NCBI GenBank assembly: GCA_021816425.1
Contig: JAKAXT010000003.1
Span: 1-51,216, forward strand
Origin: Pseudomonadota bacterium
GTDB lineage: Bacteria; Pseudomonadota; Gammaproteobacteria; Acidiferrobacterales; Acidiferrobacteraceae
Length of the DNA: 51,216 nucleotides
Reading direction: 5' to 3'
The notes beneath the pieces are model-generated. The model had not been told where the DNA came from and ran no database searches. It saw only the letters and a list, made by a program, of their open reading frames with translations. Position numbers and translations under genes: made by a program. Below, in pieces: positions 2,774 to 11,531 of this stretch; the first letter of the stretch is position 1, and each line of letters begins with the position of its first letter.

Positions 2774-3517
2774 TCAGGCCCGCGGGGGGCCTTGAAGGCA
2801 AAGATCCCTCAGGGCCTTGTGGTCGAGAATTTCGGTCTTTCGTCCCTCGGTCGCTATGAGCCCGTCATCGCGCAGCTTCGAAAACATGCGACTCACCGTC
2901 TCGAGCTTAAGCCCGAGATAGTTGCCGATCTCCTCGCGGGACATGGGCAAACGGATGATGGCGCGTGGCCAGCCGCGCGCTTCGAGACGGTCGGAGAGGT
3001 TCAGAAGGAAGGCCGCCACCTTGAGTTCGGCGGTCATGGTGCCGAGCACCATCATAAGTCCGTGATCACTTGCGATCGCGCCGCTTAGAAGCTTATGAAA
3101 TTGATGTTGCAGGCGGGGGAGGTCGGACAGAAGCGCCTCGAGTCTCGTAAAGGGTATCTCGCATACCTCGCTGTCCTCGAGCGCCACCGCGTTGCCGCGG
3201 TGCGCGTCGGTGCTGATCGCGTCGAGACCCATGAGCTCGCCTTCCATGGGGAAGGCCGTGATCTGTTCGTGACCGCCCGCGCTCACCTCGTAGATCTTGA
3301 AAAATCCGGTGCGCACGGCGGCCAGCGACTGCAGGCAGTCCCCGGCGCGGAACAGGTGCTGACCCGCGAATACGCGGCGCCTGCGTTTGACGAGGTCGTC
3401 CAGCTTCCCCAACTCTTCGGCGTCGAGCCCGAGGGGGAGACAGATCTCCCGCAGGCTGCAGTTCGAACACCGTTGTCTCAGGTTGGCCTCGAAGCTCGTA
3501 ACCGCCATGCGTCGCAT
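2774..3517 (-). CDS. fnr: FNR/ANR-type oxygen-sensing transcription regulator
   Basis: 247 aa Crp/FNR-family regulator. The N-terminus holds C17, C20 and C26 and the central sensor domain C119, matching the four [4Fe-4S] ligands of E. coli FNR (20, 23, 29, 122). A cyclic-nucleotide-binding-like beta-roll spans about 30-150. The C-terminal helix-turn-helix carries ETVSR, the Glu-x-x-Ser-Arg recognition pattern of FNR that reads TTGAT half-sites. Without O2 the cluster form should dimerise and bind TTGAT-N4-ATCAA. Several good matches to this site lie in the window, one of them 87 bases before this gene, which suggests autoregulation. ATG at 3517 is chosen, with ATG 3508 as alternative. It is encoded alone, transcribed away from the hemerythrin-nnrS operon. 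Confidence 0.93.
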   Translation of the reverse strand: MRRMAVTSFEANLRQRCSNCSLREICLPLGLDAEELGKLDDLVKRRRRVFAGQHLFRAGDCLQSLAAVRTGFFKIYEVSAGGHEQITAFPMEGELMGLDAISTDAHRGNAVALEDSEVCEIPFTRLEALLSDLPRLQHQFHKLLSGAIASDHGLMMVLGTMTAELKVAAFLLNLSDRLEARGWPRAIIRLPMSREEIGNYLGLKLETVSRMFSKLRDDGLIATEGRKTEILDHKALRDLCLQGPPRA

Positions 3518-3603
3518 CGTCCTATCGTTGGGTTGGCCCCTGAGTCGAGCCAGAGGTCCGCAGCCTTCGCCCTTGCCTCATCGTATATAAGGATATGCTA
3601 CTT

Positions 3604-3617
3604 TTGACCACTATCAA
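3604..3617 (-). promoter_or_regulatory. FNR box upstream of fnr (probable autoregulation)
   Basis: TTGACCACTATCAA matches TTGAT-N4-ATCAA at 9 of 10 half-site positions. On the minus strand it is followed by an AT-rich -10 region (TATATACGAT, about 3589-3580). The box centre would fall roughly 35-41 bases before the likely start of transcription, the usual class II activator position. Confidence 0.75.
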
Positions 3618-4129
3618 GGCCGGCCGCATACGGCACGTAAGTGTACTCTCCGCGCCGAGAGCAGGGAACGGTTCGGGGGCGTTTTGCCGAGCCATTTACG
3701 CCTTTGGGGGTAGGGAACACGGGCGCACTATCTCCTAAGATACAGCGCGCAGCGCGCTTGGCGGAGACCTGAGGCGGTGCCGTGGGGTTGCGCGGCAGGA
3801 AACGCCTATCGGGGCGCGCCGGCGGCGCCATCGCGAAGCGTCCACGCCATGGTGTGGCCCCCGCGCACCTCGTGCGCCCCCGACCACGGAAGTCCGGGCT
3901 CAAGCCCGTCGCAAGGACATGCACCATCCCCTGCCATCATCACGGGTCGCACCATCCACCGAAGGGCGGCCGGATGGCCGGACCGCGCCGCGGGCCCGAG
4001 GTCCCCGCAAGCGGTCTGGTCGGGGACCCGTATGCGTCGCCCGCAAACCCTTCGATTCGTCGTCTTGCAACCCCTCGCCCGCGGCCCGAGGCGCGCTCTG
4101 CCCGGCCTGGCCTGTGTCCGTCGGCGGTC

Positions 4130-4143
4130 TTGACCTAAGGCAA
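4130..4143 (+). promoter_or_regulatory. degenerate FNR/DNR-like box before the hemerythrin-nnrS operon
   Basis: TTGACCTAAGGCAA matches the FNR consensus at 7 of 10 half-site positions. A -10-like GACAAT lies at 4167-4172. A start of transcription near 4178 would put the box centre at -41.5, and the GTG of the first gene follows 27 bases later. NnrS genes are classically controlled by FNR-family NO sensors of the DNR/NnrR type, which read the same motif. Confidence 0.5.
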
Positions 4144-4204
4144 TGGCGCGCGGGCGGCGGCGGAACGACAATGGCCGCAACGCATTTTCGAAGAGGGATG
4201 GATC

Positions 4205-4636
4205 GTGCCGGATCGAATATTGTCGAGTTTCCTGACCAACCAGCACCGTGAACTGGACAGGCTCATGGAAGACGCGGAGAACGCCTGTGGCACGCCGCGG
4301 GCCGGGGAGACGCTGGCCGCGTTCAGCGAGGCCATGGAACATCACCTGGAGATCGAGGAGCGGGTCTTGTTTCCGGAGTTCGCGCAACGCACGGGCCCCG
4401 GGGGGCCGCTCGTCGTCATGCGCGAGGAGCATGATGCGATTCGCTCGCTGCTCGCGGAGGGGCGCGGTGCCAAAGACGCGGCGTGTCGGGCGCTTTTCGA
4501 TACCCTCACCATCCTCGTGTCGCAGCATCATTTGAAAGAGGAGAACGTCCTCTACCCCATGAGCGACACTTTGCTCGCGGATTGCGCGGACGGTCTGCTT
4601 TTGGCCATGAAGGAGGCGCCGGTCGTCCATGAATGA
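4205..4636 (+). CDS. hemerythrin-like diiron protein
   Basis: 143 aa four-helix hemerythrin domain. Candidate diiron ligands are H14, H46/H47, E51, H76, H108/H109 and E113, in the family pattern (NQH, EHHLEIEE, REEHD, QHHLKEEN). It would bind O2 or NO, or protect and repair iron centres, in the cytoplasm; no signal peptide is present. The start is GTG at 4205, placed after an AGAGGG-like site. It overlaps the next gene by 8 bases, so translation is probably coupled. It heads a five-gene run ending in nnrS and a small membrane protein, which points to nitric-oxide or oxygen stress. The exact ligand is not decidable from sequence. Confidence 0.85.
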   Translation: MPDRILSSFLTNQHRELDRLMEDAENACGTPRAGETLAAFSEAMEHHLEIEERVLFPEFAQRTGPGGPLVVMREEHDAIRSLLAEGRGAKDAACRALFDTLTILVSQHHLKEENVLYPMSDTLLADCADGLLLAMKEAPVVHE

Positions 4637-4871
4637 GCCTTTCATCGATGCGAGCGATCTGCCGCCTCCGGAGCCGCTCCAGGTGGCGTTGCAGGCGGCG
4701 ACCGCCCTGGCGCCCGGAGAGCGTGTCCGGGTACGCCTGCCGCGCCAGCCGTATCCCCTGTTCGGTCTGCTGGCCGAACGCGGGTATGGCTACGAATCGG
4801 TGGCGGTCCCGCGCGGCGAGGACTGCGTCTACGACGTCGTCATAACGCGCGGCCCGGACATGGGCCCGTGA
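4629..4871 (+). CDS. DUF2249 small protein
   Basis: 80 aa protein of the DUF2249 (SirA/TusA-like fold) family: an N-terminal Asp-rich strand, a central 'GERVRVRLPRQPYPLFGLLAERGY' type segment, and a C-terminal beta strand. DUF2249 proteins frequently neighbour hemerythrins and NnrS, but their biochemical role is unknown. It starts inside the end of the hemerythrin gene and ends in a GTGA overlap with the membrane-protein gene. The same two domains occur fused in one protein at 21905-22594, which supports a functional link. Confidence 0.75.
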   Translation: MNEPFIDASDLPPPEPLQVALQAATALAPGERVRVRLPRQPYPLFGLLAERGYGYESVAVPRGEDCVYDVVITRGPDMGP

Positions 4872-6157
4872 ACACCCGCGGGCTTGTGTTTGACGAGGCG
4901 CCCCCTTTGGCGTCGATTCTGCGCTCCTTTCTCGTGGCGCCGTGGTTCCTCGTCGCAGCGGGGCTCGTGCTCATGGCGGCGGGACCCGCCGCCTTGCTGG
5001 ATCGGTATACGGGAGGCGTGCTCGCCGCCACCCATCTCGTGACCATAGGGTTTCTCATGCTGACCGCCACCGCCGCCGTTTTTCAGATGGTGCCGGTGGT
5101 GGCCGGCGTATCGTTCCCTCATGTAACGCGCCTCGCGCCGATCGTGCGCTGGGGCTTCGCCGCCGGGGCAGCGCTCCTGGCGGCCGCCTTTCTCCAGGGG
5201 CGAGCGCTCTTCTTTGGTGTGGCCGCAGCGCCCCTCGCCGTGGCGGTCTGTGCCTTCACGCTCTCGAGCGCCCGGGTCTTGTGGCGCCTGCCGGCACAAA
5301 AGACCATGACGCCCATGGCCTATGCGACCACGCTGCTTGGCATCGCCTTGGTGTTCGGCCTCGTCATGGCGGGCGAGCGGGCGAGCGGCGCGCCGGTGAC
5401 GCGGGGGCTGCTGCGCGCCCATCCCTTGTGGGCGCTCGCAGGCGGCGTCTTCCTGTTATGGGCGGCGGTCGCTGCGCAGGTATTGCCCATGTTCCAGGGC
5501 GCGCGGCCCTGGTCTGCGCGCGTCTCGCTCGTCCTGGGCCCGCTCGTCGCGGCCCTGCTCTCGGCGGCCCTGGCCGCTTATGCCTGGCCGGGGGCCGTCG
5601 TGGAGAGGGCCCTTCTCGTCGTCTTGTCGGTGGTCGTTGCCGGCTGCGCGGGATTCCTGGGCAGGCGCCTCCGGATGCGCGGGCGCCGACGGGCGGACGC
5701 CATGACGTTCTTTTGGTATATGGGGCTCGCCTGCCTGCTCGCGGCTGCCATCGTGGGCGCCCTCATGGTCGTGGATCTCCTCTCGGGCCCGCGGTGGCCG
5801 CTCGTCTTCGGTTTCCTCGCCATCATGGGGGCCGCGGTCTCCCTGATGAGCGGCATGCTCTACAAGATCGTCCCTTTCCTGGTGTGGCTCCATCTTCAGC
5901 GGCGCCCCGGGCACCCCTATGTCCTCATGACCTCCGCCCTCGGCGAGCGGCCCATGCGTGCCCACGCCCTCCTGCATCTTGCGACCCTGGCCTTCGGCCT
6001 CGCAGCGATCGCCTGGCCGCGCGCCCTTAGCGAGGCCGCCGCGCTGCTGTGGGTGGCGGATGGGGCCCTGCTCGGTGCCAACCTCCTCGCCGCGCAACTC
6101 TTTTATCGTCGCGCCTCCCGGGCGGCAACCGGGGTCCTGTCTCGTGCGGCTCTTTGA
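4868..6157 (+). CDS. polytopic membrane protein of the NnrS/hemerythrin neighbourhood
   Basis: 429 aa with about 11-12 predicted membrane segments. The start is GTG, overlapping the DUF2249 stop (GTGA). Several helices carry histidines (for example ATHLVTIGFLMLT, residues about 55-70), and a conserved-looking 'MLYKIVPFLVWLHL' segment lies near residue 335. This resembles the permease-like proteins encoded beside nnrS in denitrifiers and sulfur oxidisers, distantly similar to haem-copper oxidase subunit I in having intramembrane His residues. I cannot name a substrate. Its position between DUF2249 and nnrS suggests a role in NO or respiratory stress at the inner membrane. Confidence 0.65.
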   Translation: MNTRGLVFDEAPPLASILRSFLVAPWFLVAAGLVLMAAGPAALLDRYTGGVLAATHLVTIGFLMLTATAAVFQMVPVVAGVSFPHVTRLAPIVRWGFAAGAALLAAAFLQGRALFFGVAAAPLAVAVCAFTLSSARVLWRLPAQKTMTPMAYATTLLGIALVFGLVMAGERASGAPVTRGLLRAHPLWALAGGVFLLWAAVAAQVLPMFQGARPWSARVSLVLGPLVAALLSAALAAYAWPGAVVERALLVVLSVVVAGCAGFLGRRLRMRGRRRADAMTFFWYMGLACLLAAAIVGALMVVDLLSGPRWPLVFGFLAIMGAAVSLMSGMLYKIVPFLVWLHLQRRPGHPYVLMTSALGERPMRAHALLHLATLAFGLAAIAWPRALSEAAALLWVADGALLGANLLAAQLFYRRASRAATGVLSRAAL

Positions 6158-7349
6158 CGCCCCTCACATCGCCTATTTTCTGGGCGGCCTTCTCCAGGTG
6201 CTGCTCGCCTTGATCCTGTGGGCGCTGTGGCTGATGGGGGCCTTTGCCGGCGCCTACCCGCTCCCCGCGATGCCCGTGTCGCCCATCGCCCTGCACGGTT
6301 TCCTGATGCTCTATGGGGTCTTCCCGTTTTTCGTGTTCGGCTTTCTGGCCACCACCTTTCCGCGATGGATGCAGACGGCGCCACTCGCGCGCCGCGCCTA
6401 CCGTGACGCCTTCGTTTTGCGGGCCGCGGGGCTCGTCTTCGTTTATGCCGGCCTCCTCCTGGGTGATGGCGTGATCGTCCTTGGCGCCGTTCTCATGGCC
6501 CTGGGGGACGCGCGGCTCGTCGCCGCGCTCATGGCCGTCTATCGGCGCGCCCGCGCGGGGGCCCGCCGCGGCGTATTCCTCTTCAACGTGACCCTGGTGG
6601 CGGAGGTCGCGGGCCTCGCGCTCTATGCGGCCGCCCTCTGGCGCGGCTCGCCGATCCCGGTCGCGATCCCGATCCGTGTCGGACTCTTCGTCTTCCTCAT
6701 ACCCACGCTTTTTGGGGTGAGTTATCGCATGATCCCGTTCTTCACCACCTCGGTGCTCGCGAACTATAAGCGCCCGCCGGGCGACCCCCGGGTTCCGCTC
6801 GGCGTGTTGGCGGCCACGGCCACGCACGCCGTCCTGGCAAGCCTTGCTTGGCGCGCCCCGCTCATCTTCCTGGACGCGGGCATCGCGATCGCGGCCTGGT
6901 ATTTCCTGGTGCTCTGGTATCGGCGCGATGTCGTGCGCCACGGCCTTTTGCTCCTCCTCTACGCGGGCTACGCCTGGCTCGGAGCGGGTTTCGCGCTTTA
7001 CGCCCTGAGCGACGCCGATCTCGTCGCCTTCCACACGACCTTGGGGCGTGGTCCCTTGCATGCCCTCGGCATCGGGTTTGCCCTGAGCCTCATCGTGGCC
7101 ATGGCGACACGCGTCACCCGGGGTCATTCCGGGCGGGCGCTCGCAAGTGATGTTTTGAGCTGGGTGGCGCTTCTGGGCATAGAGACCGCGGCGATCCTGC
7201 GATTCGCCTCCGACGTTCCCATGCTGGAGCGGCTTGCCCCCTATGATCTGAGCGTGTTCGCGGCCCCCGTCGCCATTGTGACCCTGCTGCCCTGGGCGGC
7301 CCGTTACGCGGCCATGCTCGCCACGACCCGTCGAGAGGCCGCGCCATGA
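6144..7349 (+). CDS. nnrS: NnrS family membrane protein
   Basis: 401 aa from a GTG at 6144, which overlaps the previous gene by 14 bases. A longer upstream frame is open but has no membrane character, so GTG 6144 is preferred. About 12 membrane helices. NnrS features: an early 'HGFLMLYGVFPFFVFGFLATTFPRWM' helix pair (residues about 45-75), a central PTLFGVSYRMIPFF segment, and 'LHALGIGFALSLIVAMATRVTRGHSGR' near residue 305. NnrS proteins are haem- and copper-containing inner-membrane proteins that ease NO toxicity. No NO or nitrite reductase is in the window, so the NO source may be external or from elsewhere in the genome. Confidence 0.85.
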   Translation: MRLFDAPHIAYFLGGLLQVLLALILWALWLMGAFAGAYPLPAMPVSPIALHGFLMLYGVFPFFVFGFLATTFPRWMQTAPLARRAYRDAFVLRAAGLVFVYAGLLLGDGVIVLGAVLMALGDARLVAALMAVYRRARAGARRGVFLFNVTLVAEVAGLALYAAALWRGSPIPVAIPIRVGLFVFLIPTLFGVSYRMIPFFTTSVLANYKRPPGDPRVPLGVLAATATHAVLASLAWRAPLIFLDAGIAIAAWYFLVLWYRRDVVRHGLLLLLYAGYAWLGAGFALYALSDADLVAFHTTLGRGPLHALGIGFALSLIVAMATRVTRGHSGRALASDVLSWVALLGIETAAILRFASDVPMLERLAPYDLSVFAAPVAIVTLLPWAARYAAMLATTRREAAP

Positions 7350-7835: not shown

Positions 7836-8501
7836 TCAATGGTCGGACAGCACCACCCCGGGCATGATCGCGCGCAGCTCCTTTTCGAGGGCGGGCGTAA
7901 GCCATGGGCGATAGGTCGCCGACAGCTGTGCCTCCGGGCAACCGCTCGGCCGGAAGCTCTTCAAGGTCACCGAAGGCGCGCCCAGGGCGGCAAGCTCGGC
8001 CACCATGGCGAGGAGATCGTCGGCCGACAGCAGCTCGGGATGGACGGTCGTGCGCAGCTCGTGAGGTTTTCCGCTTTGCAGCAGTATCTCCACCGATTCG
8101 CGCGCGGCGCCGCCTCCTCCCTTTCTTAAGGTGATGGCGTCGTACTTCGCAAACGGCCCCTTCACGTCGAGCCCAACCCAGTCGAGATCCCCGAGCATGT
8201 CCCGGAGGCGCCGGGCGGATATGCCGGCTGTGTGTATGGCCGTTTCGAAGCCGAGCAGGCGGGCTTCGATCAGCGCTTCGCGCACCGCGGCGGCCTGAGC
8301 GAGGGGCTCGCCGCCGCTCACCACGACGGCATCCAGGAGGCCCACCCGGGTTTCGAGAAACTGGCGCACGACGGGCCAGGACAAAGTGGCCTCGGACTGC
8401 CAGAGGTGGCTGTTGTGGCAATAGGGGCAGCGCCAGGGGCAGCCGCTCGTGAACAGGACCGCGGCCTGGCGCCCGGGGTAATCGACGCTACTCCAGGGCA
8501 C
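7836..8501 (-). CDS. nrdG: anaerobic ribonucleotide reductase activating protein (radical SAM); start uncertain
   Basis: Radical SAM enzyme of the NrdG2 type. Its CPWRCPYC motif provides the three [4Fe-4S] ligands, preceded by the family's 'SSVDYPGRQAAVLFTSGC' strand and followed by VVSGGEPL and the late GLDVKGPF segment. It makes the glycyl radical on the nrdD product. The start is a problem. Family members begin about 10 residues before SSVDYPG, which here falls on ATA (8525) or CTG (8519). The only usual in-frame start nearby is GTG 8501, which trims the first beta strand and lacks a ribosome site. ATG codons further upstream would overlap the glycyl-radical gene by about 140 bases. The ATA overlaps the previous stop as ATAG, where relatives would typically have ATGA. 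Confidence 0.85.
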   Translation of the reverse strand: MPWSSVDYPGRQAAVLFTSGCPWRCPYCHNSHLWQSEATLSWPVVRQFLETRVGLLDAVVVSGGEPLAQAAAVREALIEARLLGFETAIHTAGISARRLRDMLGDLDWVGLDVKGPFAKYDAITLRKGGGGAARESVEILLQSGKPHELRTTVHPELLSADDLLAMVAELAALGAPSVTLKSFRPSGCPEAQLSATYRPWLTPALEKELRAIMPGVVLSDH

Positions 8502-8521
8502 GAGGCCGCCGAGCCGCAGGC

Positions 8522-8704
8522 CTATGCCGACAGCCTGTTCTCCACGAAGAAGCGCCGTTCGTAGTGTTCGCCCTTCTTGCCCTCGTTGAACGACGCTACC
8601 GGCCGATGGTAGCCCATGACCCTTGTCCATACTTCGCATGGCTGACGCTCCTCGGGGCGCAGGCCACAGCCCCTGTCTTCCGTATCGCCTTGCATCGCGC
8701 TCAT
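8522..8704 (-). CDS. nrdD: separate glycyl-radical domain of anaerobic ribonucleotide reductase
   Basis: 60 aa protein that is the C-terminal end of class III ribonucleotide reductase: CEVWTRVMGYHRP (residues 23-35) with G31 as the radical site, then SFNEGKKGEHYERRFF. It is in the same reading frame as the large nrdD gene but separated by TAG GGA GGA GAG GGT ATG: an in-frame amber stop, then a strong purine-rich ribosome site, then ATG 12 bases on. The domain therefore looks independently translated and would assemble with the large chain, as GrcA/YfiD does with damaged pyruvate formate-lyase. Read-through of the TAG would restore a standard one-chain NrdD. Followed directly by nrdG. Confidence 0.85.
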   Translation of the reverse strand: MSAMQGDTEDRGCGLRPEERQPCEVWTRVMGYHRPVASFNEGKKGEHYERRFFVENRLSA

Positions 8705-8716
8705 ACCCTCTCCTCC

Positions 8717-10717
8717 CTACTCGGCTTGTGCCAAAGTCCGTCGCTTCGTCCACGCTTCTTCGTCGCAGATCGGGCAATAAACATGCTCGCCCGCGAGATA
8801 ACCGTGACGCGGGCAGATGGAAAACGTCGGTGTAATCGTGATGTAGGGCAGGCGAAAGCGGGTCAGGGCCCGCCGCACCAGGTCCCTCGCCACCGAGGGA
8901 CTCGACAGTCGCTCGTTCAGATAGAGATGCAGCACCGTCCCCCCCGTGTAGCGCCTCTGCAGGTCCTCCTGGCGCTCGAGGGCCTCGAAGGGGTCATCCG
9001 TGAATCCCACCGGCAGTTGCGACGAGTTCGTGTAGTAGGGGCGCTCGGTGGTCCCGGCCTGGCAGATGCCGGGGAAGCGCTTGCGGTCGGCGCGCGCGAA
9101 TCGATAGGTCGCGCCCTCGGCCGGCGAGGCCTCGAGGTTATAGAGGTGCCCCGTCTGTTCCTGAAACTCGGTGAGCCGGGCGCGCATATGATCGAGAAGG
9201 CGGCACGCCATGGCGTGGCCTTGGGCCGCGGTGATGTCGGCCTCGTCGGCTGTGAAGTTGCGGACCATCTCGTTGATCCCGTTCACGCCTATCGTCGAGA
9301 AGTGGTTGCGCAGGGTGCCCAAATAGCGCTTGGTGTACGGGAACAGGCCCTGGTCCATATAGGTCTGTATGGTCTTGCGCTTGATCTCGAGACTCGTGCG
9401 CGCCAGTTCAAGAAGCTGGTCCAGGTTGCGGAAAAGACCCGCCTCGTCGCCCCTGTGCAGATAACCCAGGCGGGCACAATTGATGGTGACGACGCCGAGA
9501 GAACCCGTCTGTTCCGCCGACCCGAACAGCCCGTTGCCCCTCTTCAGGAGCTCCGTGAGGTCCAGTTGCAGGCGGCAGCACATGGATCGCACCATGTGGG
9601 GCTTCAGGTCGGAATTCAGGAAATTCTGGAAGTACGGAAGACCGTATTTTGCCGTGAGGGCAAACAGCCGCTCGGCGTTCTCCCCTTCCCAGTCGAAGTC
9701 GGGGGTGATGTTGTAGGTCGGTATCGGGAACGTGAACACCCGACCCTTGGCGTCCCCCGTCTCCATGACCTCGAGGTAGGCCTTGTTGATCATGGCCATT
9801 TCGGGCGCGAGGTCGCCGTAAGTAAAGGGCATCTCCTCGCCCCCTATGACCGGGACCTGATCGCGCAGGTCCACGGGACAGCTCCAGTCGAACGTCAGGT
9901 TCGTAAACGGCGTCTGCGTGCCCCAGCGCGACGGAATGTTCAGGTTGTATATGAGCTCCTGAATGCATTGCAGCACCTCTTCGTAGCGCATGCGGTCTTT
10001 ACGCACGAACGGCGCGAGATAGGTGTCGAAGGAGCTGAACGCCTGTGCGCCGGCCCATTCGTTCTGCAGTGTCCCGAGGAAGTTCACGATCTGGCCCACG
10101 GCGCTCGAAAGATGCCTCGGGGGGCTTGCCTCGACCTTGTTGGCCACCCCGTTCAGGCCCTCCATGAGCAATGTGCGCAGCGACCAGCCCGCGCAGTACC
10201 CCGACAGCATGTCGAGGTCGTGGATGTGGAGCGCGCCGTCGCGGTGGGCCTCGCCCACTTCTTTCGGGTAGACGTGATTCAGCCAGAAGTTCGCAACCAT
10301 TTTGCCGGACACGCTTAGTATGAGTCCGCCCAGGGAGTAGCCCTGGTTGGCATTGGCCTGGACGCGCCAGTCGCGGCGGTCGAGATACTCGGTGATCGCC
10401 TCCTCGACCTCGACGCGCACCTTGCCTTGTTCGCGGGTCAGGCGACGCTTCTCGCGATAGACGATATAGGCGCGGGCGGTCCGCCTGTGGCCGTGCGCGA
10501 GGAGGTTGTCCTCCACGAGGTCCTGGATCGTTTCGACATCCGGACTTCCCGCCGGGCAGCGCGCCCCGACCTGCGCCGTCATGAGCGCCGCTTCGTTCGG
10601 CCCGTACTCGCCGGTCGCAAGCCCCGCGCGCAGGAGCGCGTAGTAGATCTTGCGATCATCGAAGGATACGACGCGCCCATCGCGCTTGCGTACACTGTCA
10701 GGGTATTCTGCGGCCAT
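8717..10717 (-). CDS. nrdD: class III anaerobic ribonucleoside-triphosphate reductase, large part without the glycyl-radical domain
   Basis: 666 aa. An N-terminal ATP-cone (VRKRDGRVVSFDDRKIY, residues about 7-25) is followed by the ten-stranded barrel typical of NrdD, and the C-terminal segment FSICPRHGYLAGEHVYCPICDEE is the usual Cys-rich lead-in to the radical domain. It reduces NTPs to dNTPs without O2. The protein stops at a TAG (8719-8717) about 20 residues after that segment. The missing radical loop is the next gene. ATG 10717 is chosen (AAGGAG about 10 bases upstream; the ATP-cone begins right after); a longer frame to 10864 is open but would run through the FNR box. Transcribed from the FNR-controlled divergent region 10718-10862. 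Confidence 0.93.
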   Translation of the reverse strand: MAAEYPDSVRKRDGRVVSFDDRKIYYALLRAGLATGEYGPNEAALMTAQVGARCPAGSPDVETIQDLVEDNLLAHGHRRTARAYIVYREKRRLTREQGKVRVEVEEAITEYLDRRDWRVQANANQGYSLGGLILSVSGKMVANFWLNHVYPKEVGEAHRDGALHIHDLDMLSGYCAGWSLRTLLMEGLNGVANKVEASPPRHLSSAVGQIVNFLGTLQNEWAGAQAFSSFDTYLAPFVRKDRMRYEEVLQCIQELIYNLNIPSRWGTQTPFTNLTFDWSCPVDLRDQVPVIGGEEMPFTYGDLAPEMAMINKAYLEVMETGDAKGRVFTFPIPTYNITPDFDWEGENAERLFALTAKYGLPYFQNFLNSDLKPHMVRSMCCRLQLDLTELLKRGNGLFGSAEQTGSLGVVTINCARLGYLHRGDEAGLFRNLDQLLELARTSLEIKRKTIQTYMDQGLFPYTKRYLGTLRNHFSTIGVNGINEMVRNFTADEADITAAQGHAMACRLLDHMRARLTEFQEQTGHLYNLEASPAEGATYRFARADRKRFPGICQAGTTERPYYTNSSQLPVGFTDDPFEALERQEDLQRRYTGGTVLHLYLNERLSSPSVARDLVRRALTRFRLPYITITPTFSICPRHGYLAGEHVYCPICDEEAWTKRRTLAQAE

Positions 10718-10777
10718 AGCTACCCAACTCCTTGTGTTTCGTACCGCTACAAATACAACTCCTTGCGGTGGAACCTC

Positions 10778-10791
10778 TTGACATCCATCAA
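10778..10791. promoter_or_regulatory. FNR box shared by nrdD and the radical-SAM/ubiUV operon
   Basis: TTGACATCCATCAA matches the FNR consensus at 9 of 10 half-site positions, in the 145-base divergent region. Rightward, -10-like TAGACT at 10814-10819 puts the transcript start near 10826 with the box at -41.5. Leftward, a start near 10743 (poorer -10, TATTTG at 10755-10750) would also place it at -41.5. One site could serve both directions. Confidence 0.75.
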
Positions 10792-10862
10792 GCCGAGGGG
10801 CTGTTCCCCTGCGTAGACTGGGACCCTCGTGAAGAAGGTTACGAGCGCGGGGGCGCGGGTGC

Positions 10863-11531
10863 ATGGCAGGGGCGGTGGCATATAGGGATGGCGTCGGACG
10901 CCCGTTGCCGGTCGTCGCAGCCTACCGCCTGCGCGACGGGGTCTACCTGAACCTCACGAATCGATGCACGCTGCGCTGCAGCTTCTGCCCCAAGTTCCAC
11001 GGCCTCTGGACGGTGGCGGATGCGCGGCTGCGGCTGCGGGTCATGGACGAGCCGTCGAGCGCGGTCCTGGTGCAGGCGGCACTGGATGCGGGGCCATGCG
11101 CCGAGTATGTCTTTTGTGGCCTGGGAGAGCCCACGACCCGATGGTCGGAGCTGCTCCTCGTCGCGGCCGCGCTGCGCCCCACGGGGACGCCGATCCGGCT
11201 CAACACCGATGGGCTCGCAAGCCTCGTCCACGGCCGCGATGTGGTCCCCGAGATCGCTGGGCTCATAGACCACGTCTCCATTTCCCTCAACGCGGCGGAT
11301 GAGGCGACCTATGACCGTCTCTGTCGTCCCGGTCGCCCCGGGAGCTTCGCCGCCATGCTGGCCTTCGCCGCCCGCTGCCGAACGTACATCCCACGCGTCA
11401 CGCTGACGGCCATCGCGGGCCTGCCGGGCGTGGACATAGACGCCTGTGCGCGCATTGCCCGTGATCTCGGCGTGGATTTCCGCGCACGCCCCCTGGAGGC
11501 GACCGATGGCCGTTCTTTCCGAGTTCGTTGA
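10863..11531 (+). CDS. radical SAM protein (TatD-family-associated type)
   Basis: 222 aa. The radical SAM triad is C35, C39 and C42 (CTLRCSFC) after 'GVYLNLTNRC', with FCGLGEPTTR as the SAM-binding Gly-rich strand and later SISLNAADEATYDRLCRPGRPGSFAAM. It is shorter than most radical SAM enzymes and resembles the small proteins often found next to TatD nucleases. Substrate unknown. It is the first gene of an FNR-headed run that continues through yhcC, ubiU and ubiV. It overlaps yhcC by 26 bases, so translation is probably coupled. No tatD gene is in the window. Confidence 0.75.
   Translation: MAGAVAYRDGVGRPLPVVAAYRLRDGVYLNLTNRCTLRCSFCPKFHGLWTVADARLRLRVMDEPSSAVLVQAALDAGPCAEYVFCGLGEPTTRWSELLLVAAALRPTGTPIRLNTDGLASLVHGRDVVPEIAGLIDHVSISLNAADEATYDRLCRPGRPGSFAAMLAFAARCRTYIPRVTLTAIAGLPGVDIDACARIARDLGVDFRARPLEATDGRSFRVR

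Follow-up and report, generated by a model that had tools for sequence, protein, structure and literature searches.

The window, that is the whole stretch of DNA that was analysed (51,216 nucleotides), carries nrdD on its minus strand as two open reading frames, a large one for the NrdD chain and a small one for its glycyl-radical end, and an NrdG2-type activase adjoins them as the dedicated radical-SAM activase of a class III ribonucleotide reductase (Table 1). Read 5' to 3' on the minus strand, the large ORF (10864..8717) ends in CPICDEEAWTKRRTLAQAE and then in a TAG at 8719-8717, which is followed by GGAGGAGAGGGT at 8716-8705, a 12-base spacer reading GGA GGA GAG GGT, and by the ATG of the small ORF at 8704-8702. 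Both ORFs share one frame in the window genome. The small ORF holds the radical loop RVMGYHRP, in which the glycine of RVMGY is G31, and stops with a TAG at 8524-8522. The first-pass annotation had described this split, and its coordinates and letters (TAG 8717-8719, GGAGGAGAGGGT, 60-aa ORF, G31) were correct to the base.

Table 1. Features of the split nrdD locus, in positions of the window
Feature	Position	Strand	Remarks
NrdD large chain	8717..10864	-	ORF of 715 aa; ATP-cone and NRDD domain, glycyl-radical end absent; PF13597 positions 2-530, PF03477, NF006126 1090.3 bits
Cys/His segment CPRHGYLAGEHVYCPIC, presumed zinc site	8765..8815	-	On the large-chain side of the split
Ribosome-binding site GGAGGAGAGGGT	8705..8716	-	Between nrdD TAG and small-gene ATG
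Glycyl-radical peptide gene, 60 aa	8522..8704	-	Gly31 codon 8612-8614; core CEVWTRVMGYHRP
NrdG2-type radical-SAM activase	7836..8777	-	ORF of 313 aa, start unsure (family match from residue 89); TIGR02495 168.5 bits, cut-off 131.15
FNR/Anr-like palindrome TTGACATCCATCAA, one mismatch	10778..10791	.	61 bases upstream of the likely nrdD start; function inferred

The ATP-cone match begins at residue 57 of the large ORF, and the real nrdD start is therefore likely the ATG at 10717, which would give a chain of 666 aa. In the NrdG frame no ATG, GTG or TTG was seen by eye from the end of the small gene to the conserved NrdG start (window 8522-8639); the nearest in-frame ATGs, at 8639 and 8630, both lie within the small gene. 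NrdG would thus either overlap the small gene by more than 100 bases or have an unusual start. FNR-like palindromes (TTGATNNNNATCAA, up to 2 mismatches) number 16 in the window against 5.94 expected, with 0 of 100 shuffles reaching 16; examples stand at 3604, 10778, 17332, 18872, 20651 and 37618.

Domain searches assigned the small ORF to the last 31 positions of Pfam NRDD (532-562 of 562; E 7.3e-08) and the large ORF to positions 2-530 of 562, with bit scores of 31.9 and 571.8, respectively, both over the Pfam cut-off of 26.2. The two ORFs jointly rebuild the NRDD family. The cut sits in the linker, downstream of the Cys/His segment and ahead of the radical loop, so the peptide consists of that loop and its tail. 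The C, H, C and C columns of that segment were invariant in an alignment of 45 rows, and its zinc role is one that we presume from other NrdD. The radical loop, which a class III enzyme carries on the same chain, was found on a separate ORF and is present if the enzyme is counted as one of two chains. PF13597 was the sole Pfam family matched by the small ORF at E up to 1, and all five of its NCBIfam matches were anaerobic ribonucleotide reductases. In a sequence search of solved structures the large chain matched known NrdD structures; a profile of the small protein matched only Thermotoga maritima NrdD, at E 0.38 and 0.39, too weak to use. An AlphaFold model of the read-through chain (alignment A2, 45 rows, window first) had a mean pLDDT of 72.5; its last 34 of 731 residues (698-731), which form the radical loop and its tail, fell below 50 and were thus placed only at low confidence.

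Translation and selection of the small gene

We collected 144 split pairs whose small ORFs differ from one another over their final 50 residues, leaving out 80 viral loci, three loci repeating the window and loci missed by the motif patterns. The small gene was offset from the frame of the large gene by 0, 1 and 2 in 35, 48 and 61 pairs, respectively, and the large chain ended in TGA in 89 pairs, TAA in 39 and TAG in 16. The gap from the large-chain stop to the first in-frame ATG had a median of 20 and a range of -59 to 298, overlaps of more than 60 bases being excluded by the pairing rule. Shine-Dalgarno matches of at least 4 bases were found before the first in-frame ATG in 120 of the 144 pairs and before the best ATG in 141, against a background of 21.3% of 8436 ATGs (plus strand, 80 loci, the best of at least 567 relatives). 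These counts bear out the earlier claim of a separate gene with its own ribosome site. When relatives were checked for both elements, as the first-pass annotation had proposed, the ribosome site before the small-gene start was kept in the window and the 21 relatives read, whereas the TAG was not conserved; the in-frame layout and the TAG are particular to the window genome.

Within the small peptide the N-terminal head is variable, and the sequence from CEVWTRVMGYHRP onward is nearly fixed. Values of dN/dS were calculated by NG86 over the 31-codon core for pairs with dS below 2. They were 0.039 for the small gene in the window's family (85/153 pairs), 0.019 for seven stand-alone genes (8/21 pairs) and 0.020 for seven paired genes (7/21 pairs) of the Sutterella family (so called here after its Sutterella genome G702), and 0.171 for a viral set of 63 distinct genes (336/1953 pairs). 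The small gene is thus under strong purifying selection in the window's family, and the viral copies are less constrained than the host ones.

Occurrence with and without the large chain

Besides the window's own genome, all 17 further members of its family that were searched have the small gene. At E 0.001 it was found in 0 of 39 genomes of the order's other families and in 5 of 39 from the rest of the class, one of these five (G069) being fused and four split. In a search with the whole NRDD family across 60 relatives, every one of the 18 family genomes gave a single large and a single small match, and the remaining 42 gave no NRDD match; within the family, no second small-gene copy was found (18 genomes, one each), and no fused NrdD. 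The uninterrupted nrdD that had been suggested as a possible counter-example in close relatives was accordingly absent, all 18 family genomes being split. Class-wide, 34 of 369 genomes matched the small-protein profile, and only one of the 34 (G321) has two copies: besides a complete split pair on contig C57, it has a stand-alone peptide on contig C3 (L173), near an SSB-like gene (by eye), RecT and a partial class I/II reductase barrel. When the large chain (NF006126) was used to search 299 phylum genomes, 16 matched, of which 12, the window's genome included, exceeded the cut-off; ten of these 12 are split with the genes side by side and two are fused, and the four below the cut-off are other NrdD subtypes.

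Named genomes were scanned for the best 80 of at least 567 relatives, a sample that leans to close kin. The large and small chains were separate ORFs in 74 of these 80 and fused in two (L081, L099), and in four the small gene stood without a large chain in the stretch examined (L029, L058, L060, L103). By record title, the hosts among these best 80 are beta-, gamma- and alphaproteobacteria, with a few drafts labelled Elusimicrobia, Omnitrophota, Acidobacteriota and Verrucomicrobia. One of the four (L029, about 3029-6411) looks by eye like a degraded nrdD operon with an ATP-cone remnant, a methyltransferase, an intact radical peptide gene, a radical-SAM gene and an NrdG remnant; the same genome has a large and small match pair on another contig. 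Plasmid records gave 28 matches, and of the eight examined, six were split and two fused. Split genes on plasmids or replicons occur in Cupriavidus necator (pHG1), C. metallidurans, Sulfuricystis, Bradyrhizobium, Paracoccus and Sulfuricurvum, and fused genes on plasmids of Actinomyces oris and Acidithiobacillus.

On pHG1 of C. necator H16 the order is a large chain of 676 aa, a small gene of 66 aa (WP_011154154.1, named nrdD by NCBI) and NrdG. NCBI also gives the name nrdD to small proteins of the Sulfuricystis, Bradyrhizobium and Sulfuricurvum plasmids, in keeping with the first-pass annotation's mention of short NRDD proteins in other proteobacteria. The split marks a broad, mostly proteobacterial clade that includes the pHG1 NrdD of C. 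necator. It is already annotated by NCBI; what is new here is the occurrence of the peptide without the large chain. A quick tree built from 77 large chains requires a minimum of 6 switches between the split and the fused state, two of them forced by starred branches, and 0 of 500 shuffles were as low. This clustering indicates that the split is old in the clade and was followed by only a few events, either re-fusions or further fissions (the tree fits both). One member of the window's family (G015) was placed apart from the others, where not all supports are starred, which suggests a transfer.

In the Sutterella family the peptide was found in 38 of 67 genomes, 12 of which have two copies. 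In 11 of these 12, one copy is paired with a large chain and the other lies on a different contig, with no large chain in the stretch fetched; the remaining genome (G762) has two pairs. The large chain of G702 lies in two frames. Seven of the 11 stand-alone genes have ordinary chromosomal surroundings. A phosphoribosyltransferase motif lies near five of these seven (L318, stretch 2937-3989, where Pfam confirmed the neighbour; L322, L324, L326 and L327). The motifs are 219 to 324 bases apart in four of them and 2975 in the fifth, and a link to nucleotide salvage is possible. The other four stand-alone genes read as prophage from their neighbours, phage lysozyme being Pfam-confirmed in both loci scanned. 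Two genomes have no small gene beside the large chain. In G756 the large chain lies at C1:1374226 and the only small gene found at C1:64488, 1.31 Mb apart on the same 2.33 Mb contig; in G759 the large chain and the only small gene found are on two different contigs. If these large chains are functional, the peptide acts in trans. Nine of 15 Sutterella-family genomes examined, G756 and G759 among them, also have a fused NrdD of a different subtype, and the stand-alone peptide might instead serve that enzyme in those nine. Two genomes (G202 and G703) have the peptide gene and no large chain that was found; the G202 gene is cut by a contig end, and in both the absence may reflect gaps in the drafts.

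Viral records were scanned in IMG/VR, whose entries are predictions and often fragments, and 143 stretches were found to encode the peptide. In the best 80 of the 143 no large chain was found beside it, several contigs ending soon upstream. Of these 80 records, 49 were searched whole, and in 49 of 49 the sole NRDD match above the cut-off was to the end of the domain; one had a second, sub-threshold match to the same NRDD end. In 8 of 10 loci scanned the neighbours include members of tail fibre/baseplate, tape measure, endolysin, portal/head-tail, virion structural and replication initiation families, and the remaining two gave families without assigned function or weak matches. A cysteine-rich head (C..G...P.DC..CAAY or similar) precedes the radical loop in 8 of the 63 distinct viral peptides (L220, L226, L232, L238, L253/L254, L269, L277) and is perhaps a metal site. 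Named phage genomes gave one weak record with the window's peptide as query and two with a viral peptide; one named-phage match (MT835493) proved to be a fused NrdD. The other, in ANMV-1 virus from uncultured archaea (KP703175.1; L339 2186-2620), is a stand-alone 144-aa protein that ends in an NrdD radical loop and is annotated as anaerobic ribonucleoside triphosphate reductase.

A probable two-chain reductase and the possible role of its peptide

With high confidence the locus is read as encoding a two-chain class III ribonucleotide reductase with its radical glycine on a separately translated docking peptide of about 60 residues; docking, activation and catalysis are assigned by homology. 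The large chain would contribute the ATP-cone, the catalytic barrel and the presumed zinc segment, the peptide would dock into the barrel, the NrdG2-type activase encoded alongside would activate the docked peptide, and the radical would be passed from the peptide glycine to the active-site cysteine. Lacking a loop, the large chain would act only with the peptide bound. Given the unlinked and stand-alone copies, the peptide is very likely a subunit that works in trans.

A sequencing error, or decay of the gene, would fit a window taken from a draft genome of 160 contigs, but the 17 of 17 other family genomes that have the small gene differ in stops, frames and spacers, the same arrangement stands in complete replicons such as pHG1, and family conservation together with the dN/dS of 0.039 rules this explanation out; what probability it keeps is vanishingly small. 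The first-pass annotation had argued from the ribosome site for selection over decay or error, and family conservation and dN/dS uphold it. It had also raised amber read-through as a source of both forms. Under read-through a full-length NrdD would be made and the small ORF would be its C-terminus, as the window's two ORFs would allow, being in frame across one TAG and 12 bases with no further stop; however, large and small genes differ in frame in 109 of the 144 pairs, TAG closes the large chain in only 16 of them, the window and 21 relatives have a ribosome site ahead of the small gene, and the two genes of G756 are 1.31 Mb apart. Frames and stops of the 144 pairs rule out read-through as a conserved mechanism, and it is highly improbable as the explanation of the split.

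The peptide may serve as more than a subunit. Oxygen cuts glycyl radical enzymes at the radical glycine, as stated in the passages cited (PMC3019208, PMC12288474), and on this ground the peptide is proposed to be a cheap replaceable part: oxygen damage would cost a 60-residue peptide, and renewal would follow naturally. An oxygen-cut copy would then be replaced instead of the whole enzyme, the unlinked host genes and viral copies would be spares, and with theirs viruses would revive or boost host dNTP synthesis; by analogy with GrcA such renewal of NrdD is plausible, and we consider exchange to have an even chance. For the swappable part first proposed by analogy with GrcA, the stand-alone copies in hosts and viruses speak in favour, and the missing radical loop of the large chain, unlike pyruvate formate-lyase, against. 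Renewal is further weighed against by the 18 family genomes, with one copy each and no spare, by the fused NrdD of another subtype that nine of 15 Sutterella-family genomes offer as an alternative partner, and by the viral dN/dS of 0.171, and the unlinked copies point to action in trans, not to repair as such. The peptide could instead be an obligate but permanent subunit, its fission neutral or aiding folding or dosage, with no renewal, and with viral copies raising dNTP supply by dosage; this we take seriously, at somewhat below an even chance. In 18 of 18 family genomes and 10 of 12 phylum genomes over the cut-off the two genes are direct neighbours, a large chain without its own loop explains the gene without a repair function, and split class II NrdJa/NrdJb offers a precedent in the passage cited (PMC9669993). 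Second copies on other contigs in genomes that already have an intact pair (11 of the 12 with two copies) and viral copies without a large chain (49 of 49 records searched whole) are, however, easier to explain by exchange. Among 44 chosen genomes, a COX1-family oxidase was found in 37 of the 39 with a split NrdD and in 2 of the 5 with a fused one (Fisher 0.007), a suggestive difference that is confounded by kinship, with one fused genome (G315) having another NrdD subtype and COX1 including NO reductases.

The split proved wider than the first-pass annotation had supposed, and the copies that stand alone in hosts and viruses justify a direct test of the swappable part. Should exchange of the peptide be real, this would be, as far as could be found, the first case of spare parts among glycyl radical enzymes outside pyruvate formate-lyase, and here the large enzyme would have given up its own radical domain. 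A natural two-chain class III reductase would make radical loading, docking and exchange directly measurable. A function is also suggested for a viral family now listed as unknown (phrog_4132), and 'NrdDG' annotations without the small gene may be incomplete.

Comparison with known systems

In openly licensed PubMed Central literature no description was found of an NrdD radical domain on its own chain, or of NrdD radical peptides in viruses; a 1999 paper on the pHG1 reductase, outside that scope, may mention the split. NrdDG of C. necator H16 is described as essential for complete denitrification in a passage that is silent on the small gene (PMC2864759), and the pHG1 case suggests that NrdD can function in vivo when split. 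The relevant passage of the CH34 genome paper gives NrdDG as Rmet_5137 and Rmet_5139 and passes over 5138; we infer that Rmet_5138 is the small radical-peptide gene.

The window's enzyme resembles fused NrdD (PF13597; NF006126/PRK08270 subtype) in its domains, their order and the radical loop, with the NrdG2 activase adjacent, and differs in having the radical domain on a separate chain, where in the fused L081, L099, L188 and L189 the linker runs unbroken from the Cys segment to the loop. The phage-type split of nrdD by an intron, intein or homing gene, as described in the passage cited (PMC3653736), was rejected, only 12 bases lying between stop and start. Viral family phrog_4132 is matched at positions about 117-166 of 179 by five viral stand-alone peptides and by the window's peptide; its profile has an extra N-terminal part, and PHROGs lists its function as unknown. 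Split NrdJa/NrdJb is B12-dependent, unlike class III. It shares with the window's enzyme the division of a reductase into two chains (PMC9669993, in the part cited).

Similar in kind are GrcA/YfiD of E. coli and Y06I of phage T4, small stand-alone glycyl-radical proteins of a bacterium and a phage that complete a large enzyme. As stated in the part of PMC8683613 (2021) cited, only YfiD and Y06I are validated spare parts, and others may exist for other glycyl radical enzymes. Membership of the GrcA family in the strict sense was ruled out by sequence, the matches being only to PF13597 and anaerobic reductase NCBIfams. A partner that keeps its own radical domain, as GrcA has, was not found: none of 18 genomes of the window's family had a fused NrdD. 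YfiD and Y06I serve pyruvate formate-lyase, which keeps its own radical loop, whereas the large NrdD chain of the window is without one, so that its peptide would be first of all a needed subunit.
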